Source of the DNA: a virus
Virus record (IMG/VR): IMGVR_UViG_3300046507_000639
Coordinates: 64,001-128,000 of that record
Length of the DNA stretch: 64,000 nt
Strand: one strand, 5' to 3'
Made by a program: the position numbers and the translations under genes. The notes below the pieces were generated by a model, which did not search any database, was not told the origin of the DNA, and saw only the letters and a program-made list of their open reading frames with translations. Of this stretch, positions 10,741-63,592 are shown piece after piece (within the stretch, counting starts at the first letter, position 1; every line of letters begins with the position of its first letter).

Positions 10741-10915
10741 GGGCCTCTAGCTTCTCTCTCATGAACGCGTCGTACACTTTCTTCGCGAGCTCGTCCCTGT
10801 CGGCGTCTGTCACGTAGCCTCTCTCGATGAGGTAGTCTGCGCGTGAGTAGAACTTCCGACGGTACTCCTGGCCGAGCTCATCGAACTCAATCTTTCGAGA
10901 CACCTTTGTCGACAA
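10715..10915 (-). CDS. small conserved-position protein between genes 55 and 47
   Basis: 66 aa from a TTG start overlapping the end of gene 55 by 29 bp; a GTG at 10903 is an alternative start. It is highly charged and helical (DELGQEYRRKFYSRADYLIE then DRDELAKKVYDAFMREKL). No family recognised. T4 also has small open frames between 55 and 47. Confidence 0.55.
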   Translation of the reverse strand: MSTKVSRKIEFDELGQEYRRKFYSRADYLIERGYVTDADRDELAKKVYDAFMREKLEAHDKDSTDN

Positions 10916-11420
10916 ACTTCTCTACTCCCTTGGGTTTCTTGGGCGGCGACTTCTTCTTCTCGAACTTCGCCACGTAGGACGCAGCCTTCTCGTCGTCGAT
11001 CGTGACGGTCTCACCAGTGCCGCCGAGGCTCATCTCGATGGACATGTTGACGAGCGACATGTGCTTGATGTACGACTGCTTCTTCTCTTTCTCGATGCGA
11101 CGGAGGAAGGCGAACCAGACGATCTGCGTGAAGTACGCGAAGGGGTTGCTGAACCTGTCGGGGTCGAACGAGTGGTAGCCGATGATGCAGTTCTCGATGC
11201 CGTCGCCGACCATCTCTGCCCGGAAGGAGTAGCCTGAGAAGTTTGGTCGGCTCGCCAGTCTCTCGGCTATCTTCATGAAGCACTCGCCGACGTAGTCAGG
11301 TATCCTCGGAGGCTCTGAGTTCCGCTTCTCTTCGGTGTGTTTCTTCACGGCCTCCCTGTGCTTTACGATGGCCGCGTAGAAGTCCTTGTTGTTGACGTAA
11401 TATTTTTTCTTAATTGCCAC
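10887..11420 (-). CDS. 55: gp55 late-promoter sigma factor
   Basis: 177 aa from the GTG at 11420; another GTG at 11435 lacks a ribosome site. It matches T4 gp55 in YVNNKDFYAAI, NFSGYSFRAEMVGDGIENCI and HSFDPDRFSNPFAYFTQIVW followed by FAFLRRIEKEKKQ, the sigma region 2-like core. gp55 directs host RNA polymerase to the TATAAATA promoters, which are abundant here. It heads the 55-47-46 operon, transcribed from the 11675-11703 promoter through an untranslated leader of about 250 nt. Confidence 0.92.
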   Translation of the reverse strand: MAIKKKYYVNNKDFYAAIVKHREAVKKHTEEKRNSEPPRIPDYVGECFMKIAERLASRPNFSGYSFRAEMVGDGIENCIIGYHSFDPDRFSNPFAYFTQIVWFAFLRRIEKEKKQSYIKHMSLVNMSIEMSLGGTGETVTIDDEKAASYVAKFEKKKSPPKKPKGVEKFVDKGVSKD

Positions 11421-11468
11421 TGATCTTGAAACCACGTATTAAAAATTTCGGGGAATGCACTTTATGGG

Positions 11469-11497
11469 TTGACAACATTTCTCAACTTTGGTATAAT
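11469..11497 (+). promoter_or_regulatory. consensus sigma70 promoter
   Basis: TTGACA, 17-bp spacer, TATAAT: both hexamers are perfect matches, making it the strongest early-type promoter in the window. No protein-coding gene lies downstream on the plus strand; transcription would enter antisense to uvsW. Confidence 0.75.
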
Positions 11498-11503
11498 AGC
11501 TCT

Positions 11504-11672
11504 AGCTGCTCTACTAGATAACAATCAGTGACTCGAAGCTTGCTTCGACATGAGCTTGCTCATGGAGTTGATGGATACTGATAAAGAATGAAGCAGTCGA
11601 GAACGATTGAGAATGCTGAATAATCCATCAATGACTAGATGCGTCCGGGTGGACCCTGGACCAAAATAATTA
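11504..11672 (+). ncRNA. candidate structured non-coding RNA
   Basis: Predicted from the perfect promoter just upstream, the absence of an open reading frame, and three strong hairpins in succession, the last (about 11643-11661) being the most GC-rich. No U-tract terminator follows the last hairpin, so the 3' end is a guess. The same hairpins would also form in the minus-strand leader of gene 55, so they may act there instead. Confidence 0.3.
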
Positions 11673-11674
11673 CG

Positions 11675-11703
11675 ATCATATACTGTTTCTAGATGAATGT
11701 AAA
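11675..11703 (-). promoter_or_regulatory. sigma70-like promoter for the 55-47-46 operon
   Basis: Minus strand TTTACA, 17-bp spacer, TATGAT. The block TTTACATTCATCTAGAAA is nearly identical to the plus-strand promoter at 14169-14197 (TTTACATTCATCCAGAAA), so these are copies of one promoter type. Confidence 0.7.
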
Positions 11704-11737
11704 CGACAGATTGCGTGCTACGCACGGTTCGCTACGC

Positions 11738-13201
11738 TCACAGCTCGTAGACGAAGGTCTTGTAGTTAAACTTCTCAGCGTCGTACATCTTTACCCTCTC
11801 CATGAAGTGCTTCAGTGCGAAGTTGACGAAAGACCCGATGCGGAAGTCGTCTGCCACGTCGTAGAGAGTCACCTTGTTCGTCACTCCGTCCAGTCGCAGT
11901 CCACGACCTACTGACTGCAGGGTCGCAATTCGAGACTTAGACGGCGACACGAACACCAGGTTGTAGAGCTTCTTCATGTTCGTACCGGTGCTGATCGTGC
12001 CCATGGAGCCGACGATGACGATCCTCTTGCCTGACTTAGACTCGTCGATGAGCTTCCTTATCCGCTCTCGGTCCTCAGAGTCAGTCTTTCCCGCGATGAA
12101 GTACACCTCGGCAGAGTCGCCGAGCGCCTCCTTGATCATCTTGAAGAGGACCTCACCGTGCGTCTCTACCCGCTTGTAGAGCACGAGGGTGTTCCCCTCG
12201 AGGTTCTTCACGAGGTTCACGATGAAGGCGTTACGCTTCGAGTGGGAGTTGATGAACTTGACCTCGTCGTTGTATGTCTTGTTCGCCCTCACCGTCTTGC
12301 AGTCCTCCTTGTCGTACTTGAGCACGATCGCTCGTATCGACAGCTCGGACACGTGTCCGTCCTTCATGAGCTGCTCGGTGGAGGTGACCTTCCTGAAGCG
12401 TCCGAACAGTCCCTCGATCTGTACTTTGCTGACCGTGCTGCCGTCGAGCGTCCCCGTGAACGCGAAGCGGTCTGCCGTGGCGGCGCAGTTGGACATGATC
12501 GTGACGAGCGACTGGGCCTTGAACAGGTGAGCCTCGTCTCCTATGACGCAGTCGAACCGCGTGAACCACGACTTGGGCATCTTGTACAGGCTCTGCCAGG
12601 TGCTGATCGTGACCGGCTTCTCGACCGTCTTGTCTACGCCTCCGGTTATCTTCAGAGCGTCGAGCGGCGTCCCGCGGTTGTAGTCCGCGAAGTCTGAGTA
12701 CATCTGGTGCACCAGCTGAGTGGTGGGGACGATGATCAGCACTTCCTTGCCGGCCGCAAGCATGAACTGAGTGATGATGTAGATGATCAGGGACTTGCCT
12801 GATGAAGTCGGAGACAGGAAGCCTGCGCGTCGAGCGTTGACTGCGTCAAGAGCTGCGTCGAACTGGTAGTCTCGGGGGAGCATCGGCAGGTCGAGGTACC
12901 CGACGAACTTGGCGAAGTCAGCCCGAGACACGTTCCTCTTCGACTCGATGCCGGGACCCACCTCGAGCTCGTAGTCTTCTTCCTGGGCGAAGTCTCGCAG
13001 GTCGTCGAGCAGACCCGTGTACAGGAGCTGCTTCTTGGTGTCGAAGACGCGGATCGTCCCGTCCCAGATGCCGGCCTTGTACTTGGGCATGAACTTGTAG
13101 CCCGGCACTTTGAACGAGAACCGGTCGGATATCTCCATGAGAGTGCCGCGGTCGGCGTCGACGTGGAAGAACGCCTCGTCGACTTTGGTCAGTCTGATCA
13201 C
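11738..13201 (-). CDS. uvsW: UvsW-type RNA-DNA/DNA helicase
   Basis: 487 aa from a GTG overlapping the uvsY stop. Superfamily 2 motifs: Walker A SPTSSGKS (130-137), DEAH (222-225), motif III FTGTLDG, motif V GSMGTISTG and motif VI QSVGRGLR. The N-terminal 100 residues match the UvsW nucleic-acid-binding domain. In T4, UvsW unwinds R-loops and branched DNA, shutting off origin-initiated replication late in infection. Slightly shorter than T4 UvsW (503). Confidence 0.93.
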   Translation of the reverse strand: MIRLTKVDEAFFHVDADRGTLMEISDRFSFKVPGYKFMPKYKAGIWDGTIRVFDTKKQLLYTGLLDDLRDFAQEEDYELEVGPGIESKRNVSRADFAKFVGYLDLPMLPRDYQFDAALDAVNARRAGFLSPTSSGKSLIIYIITQFMLAAGKEVLIIVPTTQLVHQMYSDFADYNRGTPLDALKITGGVDKTVEKPVTISTWQSLYKMPKSWFTRFDCVIGDEAHLFKAQSLVTIMSNCAATADRFAFTGTLDGSTVSKVQIEGLFGRFRKVTSTEQLMKDGHVSELSIRAIVLKYDKEDCKTVRANKTYNDEVKFINSHSKRNAFIVNLVKNLEGNTLVLYKRVETHGEVLFKMIKEALGDSAEVYFIAGKTDSEDRERIRKLIDESKSGKRIVIVGSMGTISTGTNMKKLYNLVFVSPSKSRIATLQSVGRGLRLDGVTNKVTLYDVADDFRIGSFVNFALKHFMERVKMYDAEKFNYKTFVYEL

Positions 13202-14165: not shown

Positions 14166-14168
14166 GTG

Positions 14169-14197
14169 TTTACATTCATCCAGAAATGGTTTATGTT
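14169..14197 (+). promoter_or_regulatory. sigma70-like promoter for the plus-strand accessory cassette
   Basis: TTTACA, 17-bp spacer, TATGTT, 33 bp before the GTG of the first cassette gene. Near-identical upstream half to the gene 55 promoter. Confidence 0.65.
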
Positions 14198-14203
14198 CGT
14201 ACA

Positions 14204-14211
14204 TATTTATA
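14204..14211 (-). promoter_or_regulatory. T4-type late promoter
   Basis: Exact TATAAATA on the minus strand, before the tail-tube-fold gene. It overlaps the start region of the divergent early cassette. Confidence 0.75.
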
Positions 14212-29592: not shown

Positions 29593-30400
29593 CGTCTATG
29601 ATGTCGCTCCTCACGACTATGTACGCCCAGTCGTCGTCTTCCTCGACCTGCTGGTACGGGATGGCGGTCGCGGGGTCGGTCGTCGGCTCACCGTTTGCAG
29701 TCAGACCCGGCCAGGTCTCGGTCTTCGAGTAGACCGGAGTCTGCACGAGGTCGGGGTAGAGGTCTACCGTGGCGAACTTGATCACCTTCGCGAGGCCGCC
29801 GGTGTTGGTGAAGTACCAGCCCTTGAGCGTGAAGTTAAGCGTCCAGACGATCCGTCGGCCGTCAAGGAAGCTGCCCTCGTAGGTGTCCTCGTGCGTGACG
29901 GTGTTCAGGACGATCGATATGTCTTTCTTGTACTCAGGCACGCTGTCGAGCAGGTGTGCCGACAGCGTGATGTCCGGGCGGAAGAACGGGAGGATCTGCT
30001 CGACGATCTTGAAGCCGTCCTCGAGTGTCTTCGTGATGATCGAGAGCTCGTAGCTGAGGTTCCACGGCACCGGGTTGAGGACCGCGTGAGACGACCCGCC
30101 TGAGATGACTCGGTTGACGCCGGCCGGGTTCAGGGCGCGGGACGCATCGTATGACATGTCCTTGAGCTCGTAGGATATGCGCGGCAGGATGATCGCGCGG
30201 TCGCGGTCGAGGTTGGGGTCCTCCACCACGCGGGCGAGCCACTTCTCACGCGGGCCGTAGCCGAGCGGGACCTTCCAGTCGTCGACCTTCGGGTTCGTCC
30301 CGTCGCTTCGGGATATCCATATGTCGTTGAAGAGAGTGCCGAACAGGGCCGTGTACTTCTTCGTGAGCGCGTCGTAGAACTCTCCGGACTGGCCTAGCAT
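29585..30400 (-). CDS. 15: gp15 tail sheath stabiliser / tail terminator
   Basis: 271 aa (T4: 272). YDALTKKYTALFGTLFNDI, WKVPLGYGPREKWLAR, PRISYELKDMSYDASR and GVNRV match gp15. It caps the tail and joins it to the gp13/gp14 neck. Overlaps gene 14 by 1 bp and gene 16 by 8 bp. Confidence 0.95.
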
Positions 30401-33175: not shown

Positions 33176-36100
33176 TCACTTCTGCAGCGCGATGGCGCGG
33201 ATGTCAGACATCCGAGGTACCTTCGCGGTGCTGTCCGAGAGCAGGACGACCTTGAAGCAGAACGTCTTGTAGCCGACGATGAGTGCGCCGTCAGAGCGGG
33301 CGTACTGTACGATGCCGTTGTTGAGGTACGCCGTCGTCTTCGAGCCGACCGATGCCAGGACAGAGGTCGGGAGACCGTACTGGAACTCTCGGTAGTCGGT
33401 CACGTCGATGGGAGATGAGTACAGCTTGGAGCTGCCGTCAGTCATCTGCATCTGGGTCCAGAGCTTGTCGTCGAACGCCTCGCCGTCTTCTGCTCCGAGG
33501 AGCTTGACGTAGACCTGAATGTCGGTTCCGACCGGGCGGTACGCGCCGATGTAGACCAGTGCGTCCTCAGCCACTCCGACCGAGTCGTCAAGCACGATGT
33601 TCTTCGAGACGTACTTCGTCACGGCATTGCCGTAGCGGGTGTACTCGTTGGTCGAGTCGTCGTTGATCACGTTCTCGATCATCAGGCCGGCCTTGCGGCG
33701 GAGGTCGATGACGGGCGAGATGTACATGTTAGAGGTCGTCAGCGTGATCGAGAACGTCGCGCTCTTGGCTCCCGCCAGGCTGTCCATCTCGTTAGAGCGG
33801 GAAGCCACGACTCGAGGATAGTCGAGCAGCTCGGTCTCTACCTCAGGAGTCAGGGTGACCTGAGCGGAGTCAGGTGAGTAGGTCTCGTCCACGCCCGCGA
33901 ACTTGTAGGTCAGTGAGGTCAGGGCCGGGTTGATTGCCGCGAACCTCGGGACCACCGCGTTGTAGAGCGGGTCGTCGACGGTGACGATAGTGGTGTTGGC
34001 GATCAAGGTGTTCGCGTTGAACGATGCCGACACGGAGTTCGCTGATCGGTGGAACTCGATGACGTCGCCTGGCTCCAGGTTTCCGTTCGAGGTGTCGATC
34101 TGAATGAAGTCAGAGGCCTCGTCGACCGTCTGGACTCGTCCGGACGCGTAGTTCGTGTTGGCGGTGTTGGATATCCTCACTCCACCCACGACCTTGATGA
34201 TGTAGTCGCCCGGCTCGACGTCGAAGGAGTTGTTGGCCTTCGTGAGTCCGTTGATCGTGAGGAAGTCGTCGTCCTCGTTGGTGAACACCGCGGTGCCCGA
34301 GCCGACAGTAAAGTTGGCACGGTACAGGCGGAACTTCATGTCCTCGGTCTGGTTCGCAGTCCACGTGGTCATGTTGGCCGAGACGAACAGTACGCCCGAG
34401 TACGGGTTCGAGTAGACCTGTTCACCCGTGATGACGTCGTAGTTACCGATCTCGGAGATCCACAGGTTGTAGTCGGGAGAGTTGCCGTCAGGCTTCACGA
34501 GGAACGCGTAGTCTTTGCCGTTCTCGAGGTAGACTGGGTTCACGAAGGTGAACTGCGTCTCCGCGGTGGCGTCGGCCGAAACGTTGATCTGCGAGGAGGT
34601 CAGGTACGCGCGGCCGAAGAACTTCGAGGAGTCTGGCAGGCCGAGGGTGGTCTCGACGACGAAGACGGAGCAGCCGAGGGCAGCGTCCTTCGAGCTGAAG
34701 TACAGGCCGACCTTGGTGAGGAAGAGTCCGGAGGCGTTCGACGGGACCGTAGCAGTGAAGCTCTGTGCGATCGGGTCGTCGTGTCCGCCGTGGTTGCCCG
34801 AGTGACCTCCGCCGCCCTCGATGGAGGGACCCTGTGGGTTGATCGTGGTGGTCTGGGTGCTGCTGCGGGTCTGGGTCGAAGACGACGAGTTGATCTCGGT
34901 CGTCAGGGTCGTCAGGGTCGTCGTGCCGCTCGTCACGGAGATGGACGAAGCGGTGTAGAGCGCGGTCGCCTCGGTGAGGATGCTGCCCGCCTGGACGACG
35001 AGGTCGGTCACGTTAGTGACGATGAGCTCGCGGTCTCCGTTCAGGAACGTGCTGTCAGGTATCTTGAACATACCGTAGACGTTACCCGAGCCGTCAGACT
35101 TGATGGCGGTGCCGTAGTTCGCGGTCCTGTTGAGGATCTTGTTCTCGGAGCCGGCCTCGAAGTTCGTGAGGCCCGACGGCGTCGCGGGAGCGCAGAAGGA
35201 GTCGACCAGCTTGTTGTCGAAGAAGATGTGCATGCTGGTGTTCGGCTTCATGCCGGTCGCGATGAACGCCACCTCACGAGAGCGAATGTAGGTGTTCTGC
35301 GTGACGTCCGTGACGTACTTGCCGGTCGTGATAGTGTTCGCGACGGTCGCGGCAGTAGTCGTGGTGATGATCTGCTCGGAGGTCGTCGTGGTGGAAGACG
35401 ACGAGCTGTTGGCGGACGTGTTGGTGGCGACCGTCCTCCAGTCACCGTAGGTCGTGCCGGTCGTGACGGGAGTCGTCAGGTCCTGCGTGACGTTGAGGGT
35501 GGCGCCCGAGTCGATCTCCTGGGTGAAGTAGTCGTAGGTCGGGTAGAGGTTGAGCTTGCCGTTCCACGCCCAGTACGCGCCGGTGGCGTTGCGGGTGTTG
35601 GTGGCGTAGCGCTGGTCGACGAACAGCTCGTGGGTGTACGGCGCCGTGATGAGGTGGCCGGTCTTGGTCACGCTCGAGGACAGGTCGGCCCTGTAGGCGA
35701 AGTCGATGTTGTGCTGCTTGAAGTTCGGGCGGGCGATGCCCTTGTCGGGGTCGATAGCGATCGAGTACTCGATGTCGGTGGTCTTGCCGTTGTCGTCGTT
35801 GTCGAACGAGTCGGCGAAGATGCCGTTCTTGAAGCGGTCGAGGCCGTTCGCGTCGGTGACCGAGGTGTCCTTGGCCTTCTGCTCGAGGAGGTTCAGGGCG
35901 GCGTAGTACTCGAGGCGCGTGATGCGGGTGTCGAGCGTGCCGATGTCCTTCTCGGTGTAGACGCGGTTCGTCTTGATGTCGATGTCGATCTCGAGGTCAG
36001 AACGGTTGAACGAGATGGCTTCCTTGGAGGACAGCGACGGGTACGGCGTGATGTAGGTCTCGGCGATCACCGCCGTGTCGACTTCGTTGACCGGAGCGAG

Positions 36101-38935
36101 CGGGTTCTCACCGGGCTCGCCCTGGCGGGAAGTGATCTCACCGAGCTTGTTGATGACGACCAGGTCGCGCCTCGGGAGGTAGTACTCCATGTCGGCGGTG
36201 AAGTTCGTGTCGGCGTCGAGGACGTACACGCCCGTGGCCGGCGCGTTGAACGAGCTGTTCGAGACGGGCGGGTTGATCGTCGCCGCAGAGGAGTTCGCCA
36301 CGTTGGCGGTGTTGAACTTACGCGGGCGGAAGTCGATCGCGTTCCTCAGGTCCACGAAGGAGTTGAAGGAAGACGAGAAGTACTGTGGTATCTCCGCGGT
36401 CTGGATGGCCGTCGCGTTAGCGGTGTTCGCGTCGTCGATCGGGTAGGAGTCCACGCTGAAGAAGCCCACGCCCGTGGTCGTGTTCGCCGAGAACGCGTCG
36501 AGCTCGATGAGGAACTTCGTGTTCGAGGTGATGTTCGACTTGTAGGCCGTCTTGATGATCAGCTTGCCGTGGTCGTAGAAGTTGTCCCTCTGACCGTTGT
36601 CGTACGTGAACCAGGAGGAGCGCTCGGGGTTGGTGGTGCTGTAGGTGTTACCGACGTAGACGTTGCGGACCTTAGCGACGTCGACGAAGCCGAGGTCCCA
36701 CGGGCCGGCGGTCAGGGCAGCGTTGTTCGAGCAGTCTATCTTGACGAATGTGCTCTTCGTGATCGCCTTGCCCGTCGCGACCGCGCTGCTGCGCAGGACC
36801 GGGTACTGCGCGTAGAGCGTCATGGTGCCGGAGTCCATCGTGCCCGTGCCGACCGGGAGGCCGGTGTTGACCGTGAACTGCGTGTTCGAGAGGATCATGA
36901 TGGAGCCGCCGAAGTCGTTGAGGTTCACGACGGTGCCGGCCGGGTAGTACTTCTGGATCTTGGCAGCGGTGTTCGCGGCGGCTGTGACGACGGTGTCGAT
37001 CTGCAGCGACGTGGCGTTGGTGATGGCCGTGACGCTTCGGATCTGGAAGGCCGCGCCGGTCGTGTTGATGCGGATCATGTCGCCGACGTTGAGCAGGGTG
37101 TTGAAGCTCGTTCCGGTGCCGGTGATGACGTTCGAGGTGTTGGCGTAGTTGATCGTACCTGCGAGGTTGGCCGAGTACGCGTTGTTCGACGTGATGATGT
37201 TGAAGCTGTCTGCGAGGGACGAGGACAGAGTGCCGACCGAGGCGTTGAGCCGCTCGACGCCGCCGTTAGCGGGCGAGTTGATCGTGAAGGTCACGAAGCC
37301 GTTGGCGGCCATGGTAGCCGAAGCAGCGTCGCGGAACACGAAGCTGGTCTCGTTGCCGCCCGAAGAGTTGCGGAGACGCTTGACTGCGTTGACGCCGAAC
37401 GGGAACACGAGCGAGTTGCTCGCGGCGTCCTGGATGACCGCGGTGTTGGAAGACGAGAGGACCACGTCAGCCTTGGCCGGTCCGAATGCGGTGGTGCCGT
37501 AGAAGGACTTGACGTCGTTCGCGAAGCTCTTGCCGCTGTTCATCCTCACGTTGAAGAGGTACATGCGGTACTGCGTGAAGGGCGTGCCCTTGTCGTTAGT
37601 GGAGTACTGCAGGCCTAGGACGTTGGCCTTGCCGACGACGTTGCCGGTCGGCGCGGTGCCGCTGCCCTCGTACTCCGAGACGGAGTTCTGGGGGGTGTCG
37701 TACAGGCTCACTTCAGTCGCGTGGTCGAAGTCGAAGGAGCCGACGAGCTCGTCCACGAGGACGTAGTTGCCGTAGTTGCCCGTGACGATCTGGGTCAGCG
37801 CTTCCTTGACGGTCGTCGCCTTGTTGGCCACGAGGTTGAAGGCGTTCAGCTTCTCGATGCGGTAACCCTTGACGTACATGATGCCCGTCGAGATGTTGTA
37901 CTGGAACTGCTGGTTGTTCGCGGTGTACACGTCGGTGTCGATCGTGAACGGCTTGACGGTGTAGTCTCCCGACTCCTCGTTGGTTCGAGAAGCGAGGACG
38001 TCGAGTATCTGGGAGAGGCCGGACTGGTCGGTGTTGGTCTGGGTCGGCGAGTCAGAGTCGAACTCTACGATCGCGAAGAAGTTGGTGCTGTTCGCGGTCT
38101 CGGACTTCGGCTTCGAGACGAGCGTCGCGTTGAGCTGCAGTCGGTCTGCGCCGGGAGCGTTGAAGTTGAAGAAGCCCTGGGCGTTGCTGAGGAGCGACGG
38201 GTCCTGGTTGGAGTTGACGATGACTTCTTCGGTGTTGAAGCCGACGACGTAGTTGTTCACCGACGTGTCGTGGTCGCGCACGGGGATCGTGTGCTGGTCG
38301 ACGTTGATGAAGAAGCCCTTCTGGAAGACGATGCCGTCCGAGACCTGCACGCCGTAAGCGGTGCCGGTGGCGTTGGCGGTGCCGTTCGAGGTGATGATGC
38401 TGATGGTGTCGACGAGGTTGTTCGCGTCGAGCACGCCGAACTTGTTCTGGGCGTCAGTGTAGACGTAGAGCTTCTCACCCGAGGCGAACGAGGTGACGTC
38501 GTTGTTCGAGCCGTCGGTTCCGGTGTAGATGTAGTTGACGTAGAAGCGGTTGGTCTCGGGGTACGTCAGCTCGAAGCCAGACTTGGTCGTGGACACGGCA
38601 GCGCGCACGCCGCTGTTCGACACGAGCAGGTAGTTCTGGGGTATCTCGAGGATGGACAGCTCGTTGTTGGAGTCGAACTGGTTCTTGACGTAGACGACGG
38701 GGTACTGTGGGATGTACGTGATCGCGCAGCGGTCGACGATCGATCCGTCCTTGAAGACGTACGAGCCGAACCGTGCGACCTGCTCCTGCAGGATGCTCTG
38801 GAGCTGCGTGAGCTCACGGGCCTGGACCGCGATCGAGGGCTTGAAGAGTATCCGGTGGTAGTTCTTACCCTCGGCGTCGTCGAAGTCGTCGAAGTACGGT
38901 GATACGTTGAAGTCGGTGTCGAGTCTAGAAGTCAT
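33176..38935 (-). CDS. very large virion structural protein with DUF4815-type N-terminus
   Basis: 1919 aa, the largest gene in the window. The first 150 residues (YFDDFDDAEGKNYHRILFKP, AVQARELTQLQSILQEQVAR, FGSYVFKDGSIVDR) match the DUF4815 family of baseplate/fibre proteins in marine T4-like phages. The rest is Asn/Thr/Ser-rich beta structure, with a coiled region near 1030-1070 (DTRITRLEYYAALNLLEQKA) and a low-complexity Ser/Thr segment near 1230-1250. It follows gp8 and is likely baseplate-attached, in the place of T4 gp7/gp10 or a fibre base. Exact role unknown. Confidence 0.7.
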   Translation of the reverse strand: MTSRLDTDFNVSPYFDDFDDAEGKNYHRILFKPSIAVQARELTQLQSILQEQVARFGSYVFKDGSIVDRCAITYIPQYPVVYVKNQFDSNNELSILEIPQNYLLVSNSGVRAAVSTTKSGFELTYPETNRFYVNYIYTGTDGSNNDVTSFASGEKLYVYTDAQNKFGVLDANNLVDTISIITSNGTANATGTAYGVQVSDGIVFQKGFFINVDQHTIPVRDHDTSVNNYVVGFNTEEVIVNSNQDPSLLSNAQGFFNFNAPGADRLQLNATLVSKPKSETANSTNFFAIVEFDSDSPTQTNTDQSGLSQILDVLASRTNEESGDYTVKPFTIDTDVYTANNQQFQYNISTGIMYVKGYRIEKLNAFNLVANKATTVKEALTQIVTGNYGNYVLVDELVGSFDFDHATEVSLYDTPQNSVSEYEGSGTAPTGNVVGKANVLGLQYSTNDKGTPFTQYRMYLFNVRMNSGKSFANDVKSFYGTTAFGPAKADVVLSSSNTAVIQDAASNSLVFPFGVNAVKRLRNSSGGNETSFVFRDAASATMAANGFVTFTINSPANGGVERLNASVGTLSSSLADSFNIITSNNAYSANLAGTINYANTSNVITGTGTSFNTLLNVGDMIRINTTGAAFQIRSVTAITNATSLQIDTVVTAAANTAAKIQKYYPAGTVVNLNDFGGSIMILSNTQFTVNTGLPVGTGTMDSGTMTLYAQYPVLRSSAVATGKAITKSTFVKIDCSNNAALTAGPWDLGFVDVAKVRNVYVGNTYSTTNPERSSWFTYDNGQRDNFYDHGKLIIKTAYKSNITSNTKFLIELDAFSANTTTGVGFFSVDSYPIDDANTANATAIQTAEIPQYFSSSFNSFVDLRNAIDFRPRKFNTANVANSSAATINPPVSNSSFNAPATGVYVLDADTNFTADMEYYLPRRDLVVINKLGEITSRQGEPGENPLAPVNEVDTAVIAETYITPYPSLSSKEAISFNRSDLEIDIDIKTNRVYTEKDIGTLDTRITRLEYYAALNLLEQKAKDTSVTDANGLDRFKNGIFADSFDNDDNGKTTDIEYSIAIDPDKGIARPNFKQHNIDFAYRADLSSSVTKTGHLITAPYTHELFVDQRYATNTRNATGAYWAWNGKLNLYPTYDYFTQEIDSGATLNVTQDLTTPVTTGTTYGDWRTVATNTSANSSSSSTTTTSEQIITTTTAATVANTITTGKYVTDVTQNTYIRSREVAFIATGMKPNTSMHIFFDNKLVDSFCAPATPSGLTNFEAGSENKILNRTANYGTAIKSDGSGNVYGMFKIPDSTFLNGDRELIVTNVTDLVVQAGSILTEATALYTASSISVTSGTTTLTTLTTEINSSSSTQTRSSTQTTTINPQGPSIEGGGGHSGNHGGHDDPIAQSFTATVPSNASGLFLTKVGLYFSSKDAALGCSVFVVETTLGLPDSSKFFGRAYLTSSQINVSADATAETQFTFVNPVYLENGKDYAFLVKPDGNSPDYNLWISEIGNYDVITGEQVYSNPYSGVLFVSANMTTWTANQTEDMKFRLYRANFTVGSGTAVFTNEDDDFLTINGLTKANNSFDVEPGDYIIKVVGGVRISNTANTNYASGRVQTVDEASDFIQIDTSNGNLEPGDVIEFHRSANSVSASFNANTLIANTTIVTVDDPLYNAVVPRFAAINPALTSLTYKFAGVDETYSPDSAQVTLTPEVETELLDYPRVVASRSNEMDSLAGAKSATFSITLTTSNMYISPVIDLRRKAGLMIENVINDDSTNEYTRYGNAVTKYVSKNIVLDDSVGVAEDALVYIGAYRPVGTDIQVYVKLLGAEDGEAFDDKLWTQMQMTDGSSKLYSSPIDVTDYREFQYGLPTSVLASVGSKTTAYLNNGIVQYARSDGALIVGYKTFCFKVVLLSDSTAKVPRMSDIRAIALQK

Positions 38936-60629: not shown

Positions 60630-60657
60630 ATTCTATATCAGAGTCGAGAAATGTCAA
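60630..60657 (-). promoter_or_regulatory. sigma70-like early promoter
   Basis: Minus strand TTGACA, 16-bp spacer, TAGAAT, reading into the ATP-grasp gene. It lies immediately beyond the gene 32 terminator. Confidence 0.55.
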
Positions 60658-60661
60658 CCAA

Positions 60662-60685
60662 AGAAAAAGGGAGCCGAAGCTCCCT
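60662..60685 (-). terminator. intrinsic terminator after gene 32
   Basis: Minus strand GGGAGC, loop TTCG, GCTCCC, then TTTTTCTTT: a textbook tetraloop terminator a few bases after the gene 32 stop. Confidence 0.9.
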
Positions 60686-62462: not shown

Positions 62463-62546
62463 TGGAGGCCTGCCCAGGGATCGAACCTGGTCTCTTTCGA
62501 GGCATCTCCTTTGCAGGGAGTCGCGTTACCGTCCCGCCCGCAGGCC
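62463..62546 (-). tRNA. tRNA-Cys (GCA) with enlarged variable region
   Basis: 84 nt including encoded CCA. Acceptor GGCCTGC/GCAGGCC, D-stem GCG/CGC, anticodon arm ACTCC-CTGCAAA-GGAGA (one A-A mismatch), T-arm CCAGG-TTCGATC-CCTGG, discriminator U73, which is a Cys identity element. Unusually, 14 nt lie between anticodon and T stems and can form CTC-GAAA-GAG, a short extra arm; tRNA-Cys normally has 4-5 nt there. Confidence 0.85.
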
Positions 62547-62650
62547 ACTTGCCGAGGACCTCTACGAGGTCGTAACGCTGTCTCGGCACTCTACGGGCAG
62601 TTAGGTGTCTGCCGACCTTTCACTCACCGTGCATGCCGGAGAGTTATTTC
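62547..62650 (-). other. structured spacer between tRNA genes
   Basis: 104 bp with no gene. On the minus strand TGCCGAG pairs with CTCGGCA around an inner perfect hairpin GACCTC-GTA-GAGGTC, and upstream CGGCAG-ACACCTAA-CTGCC forms another. It has no anticodon-type loop or CCA, so not a recognisable tRNA; it may aid processing or be a decayed tRNA. Confidence 0.4.
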
Positions 62651-62728
62651 TGGTGCCCGGCGTGGGGCTCGAACCCACGACATTCCCATTTTAAGTGGGA
62701 CGACTCTAACCAACTGGCCTAGCCGGGC
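62651..62728 (-). tRNA. tRNA-Leu-type (UAA anticodon) with short variable loop
   Basis: 78 nt with CCA. Acceptor GCCCGGC/GCCGGGC, D-stem GGC/GTC with a long D-loop, anticodon arm TCCCA-CTTAAAA-TGGGA, 5-nt variable loop ATGTC, T-arm GTGGG-TTCGAGC-CCCAC, A73. The anticodon reads UUA (Leu), and a 3-bp D-stem and A73 suit Leu, but bacterial tRNA-Leu should carry a long variable arm, which is missing. Confidence 0.8.
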
Positions 62729-62734
62729 GCATTC

Positions 62735-62742
62735 TATTTATT
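62735..62742 (-). promoter_or_regulatory. possible variant late promoter at tRNA-Leu
   Basis: AATAAATA on the minus strand, 6 bp before the mature 5' end of tRNA-Leu(UAA). A late transcript would start at about the tRNA's first base. Confidence 0.3.
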
Positions 62743-63118
62743 CTTCGTGGTGCGGGGCGTGGCTCCAGTCGACTTCACCGGTCTCGACGAGCTTGCGAAG
62801 AGTGAGCGCAGCGTCTTCCGGAGTCACGGCGCCAAAGTCGATGCCTTGACCGAAGGGGTAGAAGAGCTTACCGCCGATGTCTTCACTGATGCCGAGGTAT
62901 TTCCGGGCGTCTTCCAAGAACGTATCGTCGAATCTTATCGTCTCGGGGTGCCCGCGCTGTTCCCAGGCCGACCATCCCGCGAGGCATGCCGGCGCGCCGC
63001 ACTCGAAGGTCTCGTAGTTCAGGTTGAACCCGTGAATCTTGCCGTGCGAGTTGTCTACGCGAGGCAGAGTCTCGATGAGGTCGGCGAGCGCGAGGGCGTG
63101 TTCCCTGTTGACTGTCAT
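62738..63118 (-). CDS. conserved hypothetical phage protein
   Basis: 126 aa from the ATG at 63118 with GGAAGGGAC upstream. The segment FECGAPACLAGWSAW, then DARKYLGISEDIGGKLFYPF and TPEDAALTLRKLVETGEVDW, is a pattern I know from small proteins of many phages and bacteria (Cys-Gly-x-x-x-Cys-x-x-Gly-Trp core, LF-P block, terminal TG-VDW). No function is known. Confidence 0.65.
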   Translation of the reverse strand: MTVNREHALALADLIETLPRVDNSHGKIHGFNLNYETFECGAPACLAGWSAWEQRGHPETIRFDDTFLEDARKYLGISEDIGGKLFYPFGQGIDFGAVTPEDAALTLRKLVETGEVDWSHAPHHEE

Positions 63119-63147
63119 GATGTAGTCCCTTCCGTTGATCGTGAAGA

Positions 63148-63176
63148 AATATACCACGACCGGAGCCAAATGTCAA
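63148..63176 (-). promoter_or_regulatory. sigma70-like early promoter
   Basis: Minus strand TTGACA, 17-bp spacer, TATATT, reading into the 126-aa gene and the tRNA/gene 33-59-32 region beyond. Confidence 0.7.
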
Positions 63177-63189
63177 CTGATTTGAGAAA

Positions 63190-63411
63190 TCACTTCGTCG
63201 GGGGAGTAGTCGAAGTGTCCTTCGCGGCGAGCTGCTGGACGCTCGAGACCAGCGTCTTGATGACGAGGTTGAGCAGGTTGAGCGAACCGACGATCTTCAG
63301 GGCCACGACGGCCGAGACGATGGTGGTCCAGTCGAAACCGATCAGCGCAGAGATCAAGGTCGCGAGCAGCGTCGCGACTACTGCGATGAGGTTGAGTGTA
63401 TTGGTGTTCAT
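63190..63411 (-). CDS. small two-helix membrane protein (holin-like)
   Basis: 73 aa from the ATG at 63411 with GGAG 5 nt upstream; starts further upstream would overlap the tRNA-Leu(CAA). Helices at about 5-24 (LNLIAVVATLLATLISALIG) and 27-46 (WTTIVSAVVALKIVGSLNLL), an amphipathic stretch, then a polar tail KDTSTTPPTK. Size and layout resemble class II holins but nothing proves a lysis role. Confidence 0.5.
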   Translation of the reverse strand: MNTNTLNLIAVVATLLATLISALIGFDWTTIVSAVVALKIVGSLNLLNLVIKTLVSSVQQLAAKDTSTTPPTK

Positions 63412-63430
63412 CATGGCTCCGTTACAGTTC

Positions 63431-63509
63431 TGGTACCCGACCACGGAGTCGAACCGTGATGCACCTCGCTTTGAGGGAGGCGGCTTTACCGAGGTTTGCC
63501 TAGTCGGGC
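63431..63509 (-). tRNA. tRNA-Leu-type (CAA anticodon) with short variable loop
   Basis: 79 nt with CCA. Acceptor GCCCGAC/GTCGGGT (G-U at the end), D-stem GGC/GCC with a 13-nt loop, anticodon arm CCTCC-CTCAAAG-CGAGG (one C-C mismatch), variable loop TGCAT, T-arm CACGG-TTCGACT-CCGTG, A73. The anticodon decodes UUG (Leu) yet the long Leu variable arm is absent. Confidence 0.78.
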
Positions 63510-63514
63510 AAATT

Positions 63515-63592
63515 TGGCAGGGAAGGAGGGATTCGAACCCCCGATCGCGGTTTTGGAGACCGCAGCTTTAGGCCAGGCTAAGCTACATCCCT
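63515..63592 (-). tRNA. tRNA-Trp (CCA)
   Basis: 78 nt with CCA. Acceptor AGGGATG/CTTCCCT (one T-T mismatch), D-stem GCTT/AAGC, anticodon arm GCGGT-CTCCAAA-ACCGC, T-arm GGGGG-TTCGAAT-CCCTC, G73, a Trp identity element. It lies 5 bp from tRNA-Leu(CAA) and is probably co-transcribed. Confidence 0.92.

Follow-up and report, generated by a model that had tools for sequence, protein, structure and literature searches.

What is transcribed from a consensus promoter that has no gene after it? The question is raised by a non-coding island of a T4-like phage, situated between gene 55 and uvsW. The window, the stretch of 64,000 bases analysed here, represents bases 64001-128000 of its source record (G000, 135,816 bases). 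The original prediction had offered three answers for the island: a phage small RNA, an antisense regulator of gene 55 or uvsW, or a regulatory leader that times late transcription. Judging from the sequence, the island belongs to a strongly promoted RNA element that had not been described before and is present three times; it probably encodes a genuine phage noncoding RNA. The features of the locus are summarized in Table 1.

Table 1. Features of the gene 55-uvsW intergenic region (window coordinates)
Feature	Position	Strand	Description
Gene 55, late sigma factor	10887..11435	minus	PHROG phrog_234, 9.1e-54
Non-coding island	11430-11737		flanked by gene 55 (late sigma) and uvsW
Promoter of candidate RNA	11469..11497	plus	sigma70-type, TTGACA-17-TATAAT, extended -10
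Inferred noncoding RNA, about 160 nt	11504..11662	plus	3' limit set at the end of the terminal hairpin
P2, weak tentative hairpin	11513..11529	plus	3 bp ACU/AGU, 11-nt loop; permutation
P3, first twin hairpin	11533..11548	plus	UCGAAG-CUUG-CUUCGA, 6-bp perfect stem
P4, second twin hairpin	11549..11564	plus	CAUGAG-CUUG-CUCAUG, 6-bp perfect stem, abuts P3
P5, variable arm	11567..11632	plus	closed by GUUGAUGGAU/AUCCAUCAAU (11567-11576 with 11623-11632)
UCAAUGAC	11628..11635	plus	invariant in 7/7 copies
P6, terminal hairpin	11643..11661	plus	GUCCGGG/CCUGGAC, 7-bp stem
Gene 55 promoter, facing	11675..11703	minus	TTTACA-17-TATGAT, 10/12
GC hairpin, UAC triloop, plus TTCGCTAC	11706..11735		between uvsW stop and minus promoter; read by eye
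uvsW helicase	11738..13201	minus	Pfam UvsW_N, 3.6e-16

The island is AT-rich, as had been claimed, with 39% GC compared with about 59%; the GC content is 0.387 in the bin 11401-11700 and roughly 0.5-0.69 in the remaining bins. The plus-strand promoter matches the consensus exactly, TTGACA (11469-11474) and TATAAT (11492-11497) being separated by 17 nt with TGG immediately 5' of the -10 hexamer. Only three perfect (12/12) sites exist in the entire source record, one of them the island's and another the promoter of an element copy at G000:30360(-), while sites of at least 10/12 number 33, against 6.3 in mononucleotide shuffles. No gene follows the promoter, the open reading frames on either strand being short and unconserved. 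The facing promoter for gene 55 was also found where predicted, and its transcript would start near 11668; the true start of gene 55 itself is probably the GTG near 11420. A second promoter sequence of the TTTACA class lies on the plus strand at window 14168-14208; its identity to that of gene 55 is 83%.

When the island was used to search the record it comes from, an 86% identical copy of 116 bases was detected on the opposite strand (30256-30371), whose promoter is identical and whose hairpin pair is the same. With a DNA pattern of the twin hairpins, more copies were detected in IMG/VR, in the related phage G001 (126,343 bases) and in two other contigs. A covariance model including both promoter and hairpins gave exactly seven distinct strong places in these records (87-104 bits) and nothing further above about 16 bits; an eighth row, on contig G004, repeats copy B from another record and was not counted. 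Copies A, B and F belong to the phage of the window, C, D and E to G001, and H to G003. They occupy three loci, the uvsW/55 spacer (locus 1; A, C and H), the region upstream of primase gene 61 (locus 2; B and D) and that upstream of a macro-domain gene (locus 3; E and F). Two related phages thus share all three positions, and in G003 the copy at uvsW/55, at least, is present. The relatives are all contigs from metagenomes. Contig G002 (IMGVR_UViG_3300046660_000452) overlaps G000 127193-135816 over 8,624 bases at 99.94% identity, indicating that it continues the phage of the window. Joined together, G000 and G002 give a minimum genome size of about 160 kb. The macro-domain protein behind the third locus is encoded in both phages, at L097:1053-1547 for copy E (by Pfam) and by a gene of G002 for copy F (from its sequence).

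Since UvsW is 70-74% identical across the three phages and the primases are 71% identical, the element has been kept over real divergence. The independent observations are fewer than seven because copies within a genome share segments: A and B are alike in promoter and start (86% over 116 bases), and the tails of D and E are identical. Outside these records, looser twin-hairpin and promoter patterns gave only unrelated matches in viral contigs. At 63 distant uvsW or primase loci of T4-like relatives no element was detected (best E 1.2), many of these loci having other sequence or just a short uvsW-55 gap. One exact pattern gave 0 matches in GTDB genomes, and isolate phages gave nothing under E 0.2 for the island. 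The UvsW proteins of the nearest isolates are about 45% identical, and no isolate of the clade was found. From its absence in the isolate phages, the GTDB pattern scan and the distant loci, the element looks restricted to one unsampled clade.

The three strong hairpins that had been predicted are all present as P3, P4 and P6. Across the copies, the twin hairpins P3 and P4 have stems of 5-6 bp, G(CUUG)C loops in 14 of 14 cases and zero spacing, the outermost pair of P3 being A-A in B, E and F. In a MAFFT alignment, 96.4% of the twin-hairpin cells are paired, and both sides have changed in 4 of the 12 pairs. The covariation score is 0.230, compared with 0.048 after shuffling; none of 500 shuffles scored as high and slid controls stayed at or below 0.052, indicating compensating base changes in excess of both controls. 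Comparison with relatives hence revealed a conserved structure whose twin stems covary. Six copies are 91-100% identical in this module and H is 75-78% identical to them, while the values are 46-71% for the middle arm and 53-100% for the tail; the difference from the middle arm places selection on the twin hairpins. The folding energy of 11503-11740 is unremarkable by itself (z -1.4), that of the 165-nt core moderate (z -3.3), and it is weak in E (z +0.5) and F (z -0.3). It is by conservation and covariation among relatives, rather than by folding energy, that the element exceeds chance.

The whole element is arranged 5' to 3' as promoter, start, P2, P3, P4, variable arm, UCAAUGAC and P6. Transcription would start 7 nt after the -10 hexamer, where A is present in 6 of the 7 copies. 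The arm sequence of P5 is unconserved among the copies and almost free to vary, and its closing helix differs from copy to copy. When the partners of each helix, with arms picked by eye, were swapped among the copies, pairing was as good as with the own partners in 7 (P2), 5 (P5) and 132 (P6) of 5000 swaps, which is suggestive of pairing in all three. RNAalifold predicted no pairs for P6 on the MAFFT alignment, probably due to differing arm lengths, and this hand-set swap comparison is the one line of evidence for P6. P5, P6 and the middle arm contain several G-U pairs, which on the opposite strand would turn into A-C mismatches, and the plus strand is thus favoured as the folded strand. Occurrences of UCAAUGAC in excess elsewhere in the genomes were found mostly in ordinary coding sequence, and were set aside. 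A small inverted repeat in the promoter discriminator (P1, window 11498-11510), AGC...GCT or, in C and E, AGAC...GTCT, keeps its pairing across the copies; as an RNA helix it was dropped, since it lies largely 5' of the predicted transcript start.

Close to the uvsW stop, the hairpin at 11706..11735 shows, by eye, changed stem letters with pairing kept in C (CGGUGC/GCACCG) and H (AAUUUCCC/GGGAAAUU), and is possibly a uvsW 3'-end element. Its GCGTAGCGA motif (window 11729-11737, minus) recurs as ACGCGTAGCGA within the variable arm in copies D, E, F and H, and in copy F an inverted version located downstream could pair with the motif over 11 bp.

Several other identities were set aside. In Rfam no match reached the gathering threshold, the island giving only sub-threshold snoRNA matches and the paralogs none. 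The reading frames MSLLME... and MT[KR]C... start in conserved parts, yet their lengths range between 2 and 52 codons, with stops in B and H; the short frames are without an evident ribosome-binding site, no frame is common to the copies, and peptide coding was rejected. Nor is the element a clear terminator: no U-tract follows the twin hairpins, and no U-tract terminator follows any copy, although the phage owns U-tract terminators directly before promoters. A terminator scan gave a single match near an RNA end, the weak P6 of H, all others being far downstream. As no U-tract terminator follows the copies, a discrete RNA would need another way to end, and transcription of B and F could continue into the following gene.

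Stem-loops of the terminator type were observed at window 60657-60685 (G000 124657-124685) and at G000 35785-35806, 36228-36249 and 132220-132237. Those at window 60657-60685 and G000 35785 directly precede a sigma70-like promoter, forming PeSL-like units, and G000 35775-35829 and 36218-36272 constitute a near-identical repeat of 55 bases.

The small-RNA option of the original prediction is the favoured one, given six further copies, a promoter and a structure that are both conserved, and a constant set of three loci. Most likely the element specifies a structured phage RNA of about 160-185 nt that is made early and from several copies. The account of its action that we prefer, though tentatively, is a three-copy family of structured noncoding RNAs that act early and in trans via a protein on the twin hairpins. 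Each RNA would be made early by host RNA polymerase from its near-ideal sigma70 promoter, and the three copies with top-strength promoters would provide a high dosage early in infection. The twin hairpins would provide two docking sites for a single RNA-binding protein, from either the host or the phage, and the RNA would act in trans by occupying or recruiting the bound protein. A trans-acting RNA with two sites fits the varied neighbourhoods and orientations, the top-strength early promoters and the single strongly constrained module; a search for a common target of the copies gave none.

The main rival is a transcription element acting in cis, in which the nascent twin hairpins would affect the same RNA polymerase by antitermination or pausing, as with the put RNA of HK022. 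The distance from TATAAT to the first GCTTGC, always 40-44 nt, and the adjacency of the two hairpins agree with such a role, and at loci 2 and 3 it fits the location of B and F directly upstream of the co-directional primase and macro-domain genes. At locus 1, however, the transcripts of A, C and H would cross uvsW in antisense direction and lead to no gene that could profit, and D is separated from the primase gene by a second promoter. The cis element also leaves the conserved UCAAUGAC and the terminal hairpin unexplained, and a one-way search of the HK022 genome (NC_002166) with model R1 gave no match. The presence of the element in three unrelated gene contexts, in differing orientation to the neighbours, argues against a purely local cis role, and we regard this explanation as unlikely, if the best of the competitors.

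Somewhat less probable is an antisense or promoter-interference switch, in which the strong early plus promoter, facing the weaker one of gene 55, or its antisense RNA would delay the late sigma factor until early transcription ends. In T4 biology the timing of gene 55 is a sensible regulatory target. With a start near 11668, the leader of the gene 55 transcript would be complementary to the entire candidate RNA, and the facing promoter pair is kept in A, C and H, the minus promoter of C being retained and that of H reading TTTACT...TATAAT. All seven copies have the same promoter class with a 16-17-nt spacer and extended -10. Four of them (B, D, E and F) are co-directional with the next gene, without a facing promoter and antisense to no gene. 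Moreover, conservation is focused on the twin hairpins instead of being spread across the overlap, and antisense pairing does not require conserved stems. The predicted antisense relation to gene 55 or uvsW therefore holds as geometry at A, C and H, but is ruled out as the common function because it applies at one of the three loci. The predicted timing of late transcription through the gene 55 leader may be a local add-on at locus 1, as the geometry there suggests.

We consider it improbable that the copies are mobile regulatory cassettes of the PeSL type, repeats of promoter and stem-loop spread by recombination with no RNA function. Multiple copies of promoter plus stem-loops would be expected of such cassettes, and paralogs do sometimes share more than orthologs, as seen for A/B and for the D/E tails. 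Against this, the element has no hairpin with a U-tract, its hairpins are downstream of the promoter, and the phage has separate true terminator-then-promoter units; the same three loci are occupied in two phages of about 70-80% identical DNA, with the compensating stems kept.

A replication origin, at which the transcript from the strong promoter would form an R-loop to prime replication as at T4 oriF beside uvsY, has very little probability. The location next to uvsW/uvsY and the three promoters per genome agree with it, and in T4 the origin oriF has been annotated at uvsY, the uvsY transcript serving as primer; but the skew is without inflection at 11.4 kb, an R-loop primer requires no conserved hairpins, and locus 3 is in a region of non-core genes. 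An ordinary promoter with chance hairpins in an AT-rich spacer, to which the insignificant folding of the single sequence 11503-11740 might point, is refuted almost beyond doubt by seven copies of the same anatomy with compensating changes.

The family offers a compact multi-copy candidate of conserved position, with a sharply defined module of two 16-nt hairpins. This module may be used immediately as bait in the search for a partner, and allows a clear test by compensatory mutation.

The core of P3, GAAGCUUGCUUC, occurs in helix 6 (V1, the spur hairpin) of 16S rRNA of many phyla, as does the longer P3 of copy H, AAGAAGCUUGCUUCUU. For the core hairpin this is a true resemblance, but being so widespread it does not discriminate and was discarded as a clue. 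Its simplest reading is likely convergence on a stable CUUG loop; mimicry of helix 6 by P3, for which no evidence was found, is highly doubtful.

Protein-sequestering RNAs of the CsrB/RsmZ type carry repeated identical hairpins as multivalent protein sites. The present element resembles them in its repeated hairpins with identical loops, but the loops are CUUG, without GGA. The put RNA of HK022 has a pair of stem-loops next to each other near the beginning of an early phage transcript. The element likewise has two stem-loops shortly after an early promoter, but for three of the seven copies there is no gene into which transcription could read. PeSL are repeated units of a sigma70 promoter and stem-loop in T4-type genomes, with exchange between copies, and their stem-loops are reportedly terminators. 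The strong sigma70-like promoter and the genomic repetition with exchange between copies are also present here, but the defining feature of PeSL, an intrinsic-terminator stem-loop, is absent, with no U-tract after the twin hairpins. Unlike PeSL, the element has its stem-loops downstream of the promoter and is held at fixed loci; in RB49, model R1 gave chance-level scores only. For the PeSL cassettes of RB49/phi1, which are mobile and regulatory, Arbiol 2010 is listed in PMC4177764.

Among T4 RNAs, RNAC and RNAD are small RNAs from the tRNA region with unknown function (PMC3014915), and both are classed as late (PMC9697503). The window holds four tRNA genes on the minus strand at 62463-63592, for Cys, Leu(taa), Leu(caa) and Trp. 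Like RNAC and RNAD, the present element is a candidate small noncoding RNA of a T4-type phage to which no role has been assigned. In contrast to these RNAs of the tRNA region, it is present as three dispersed copies, each with a consensus sigma70 promoter and the twin CUUG hairpins.
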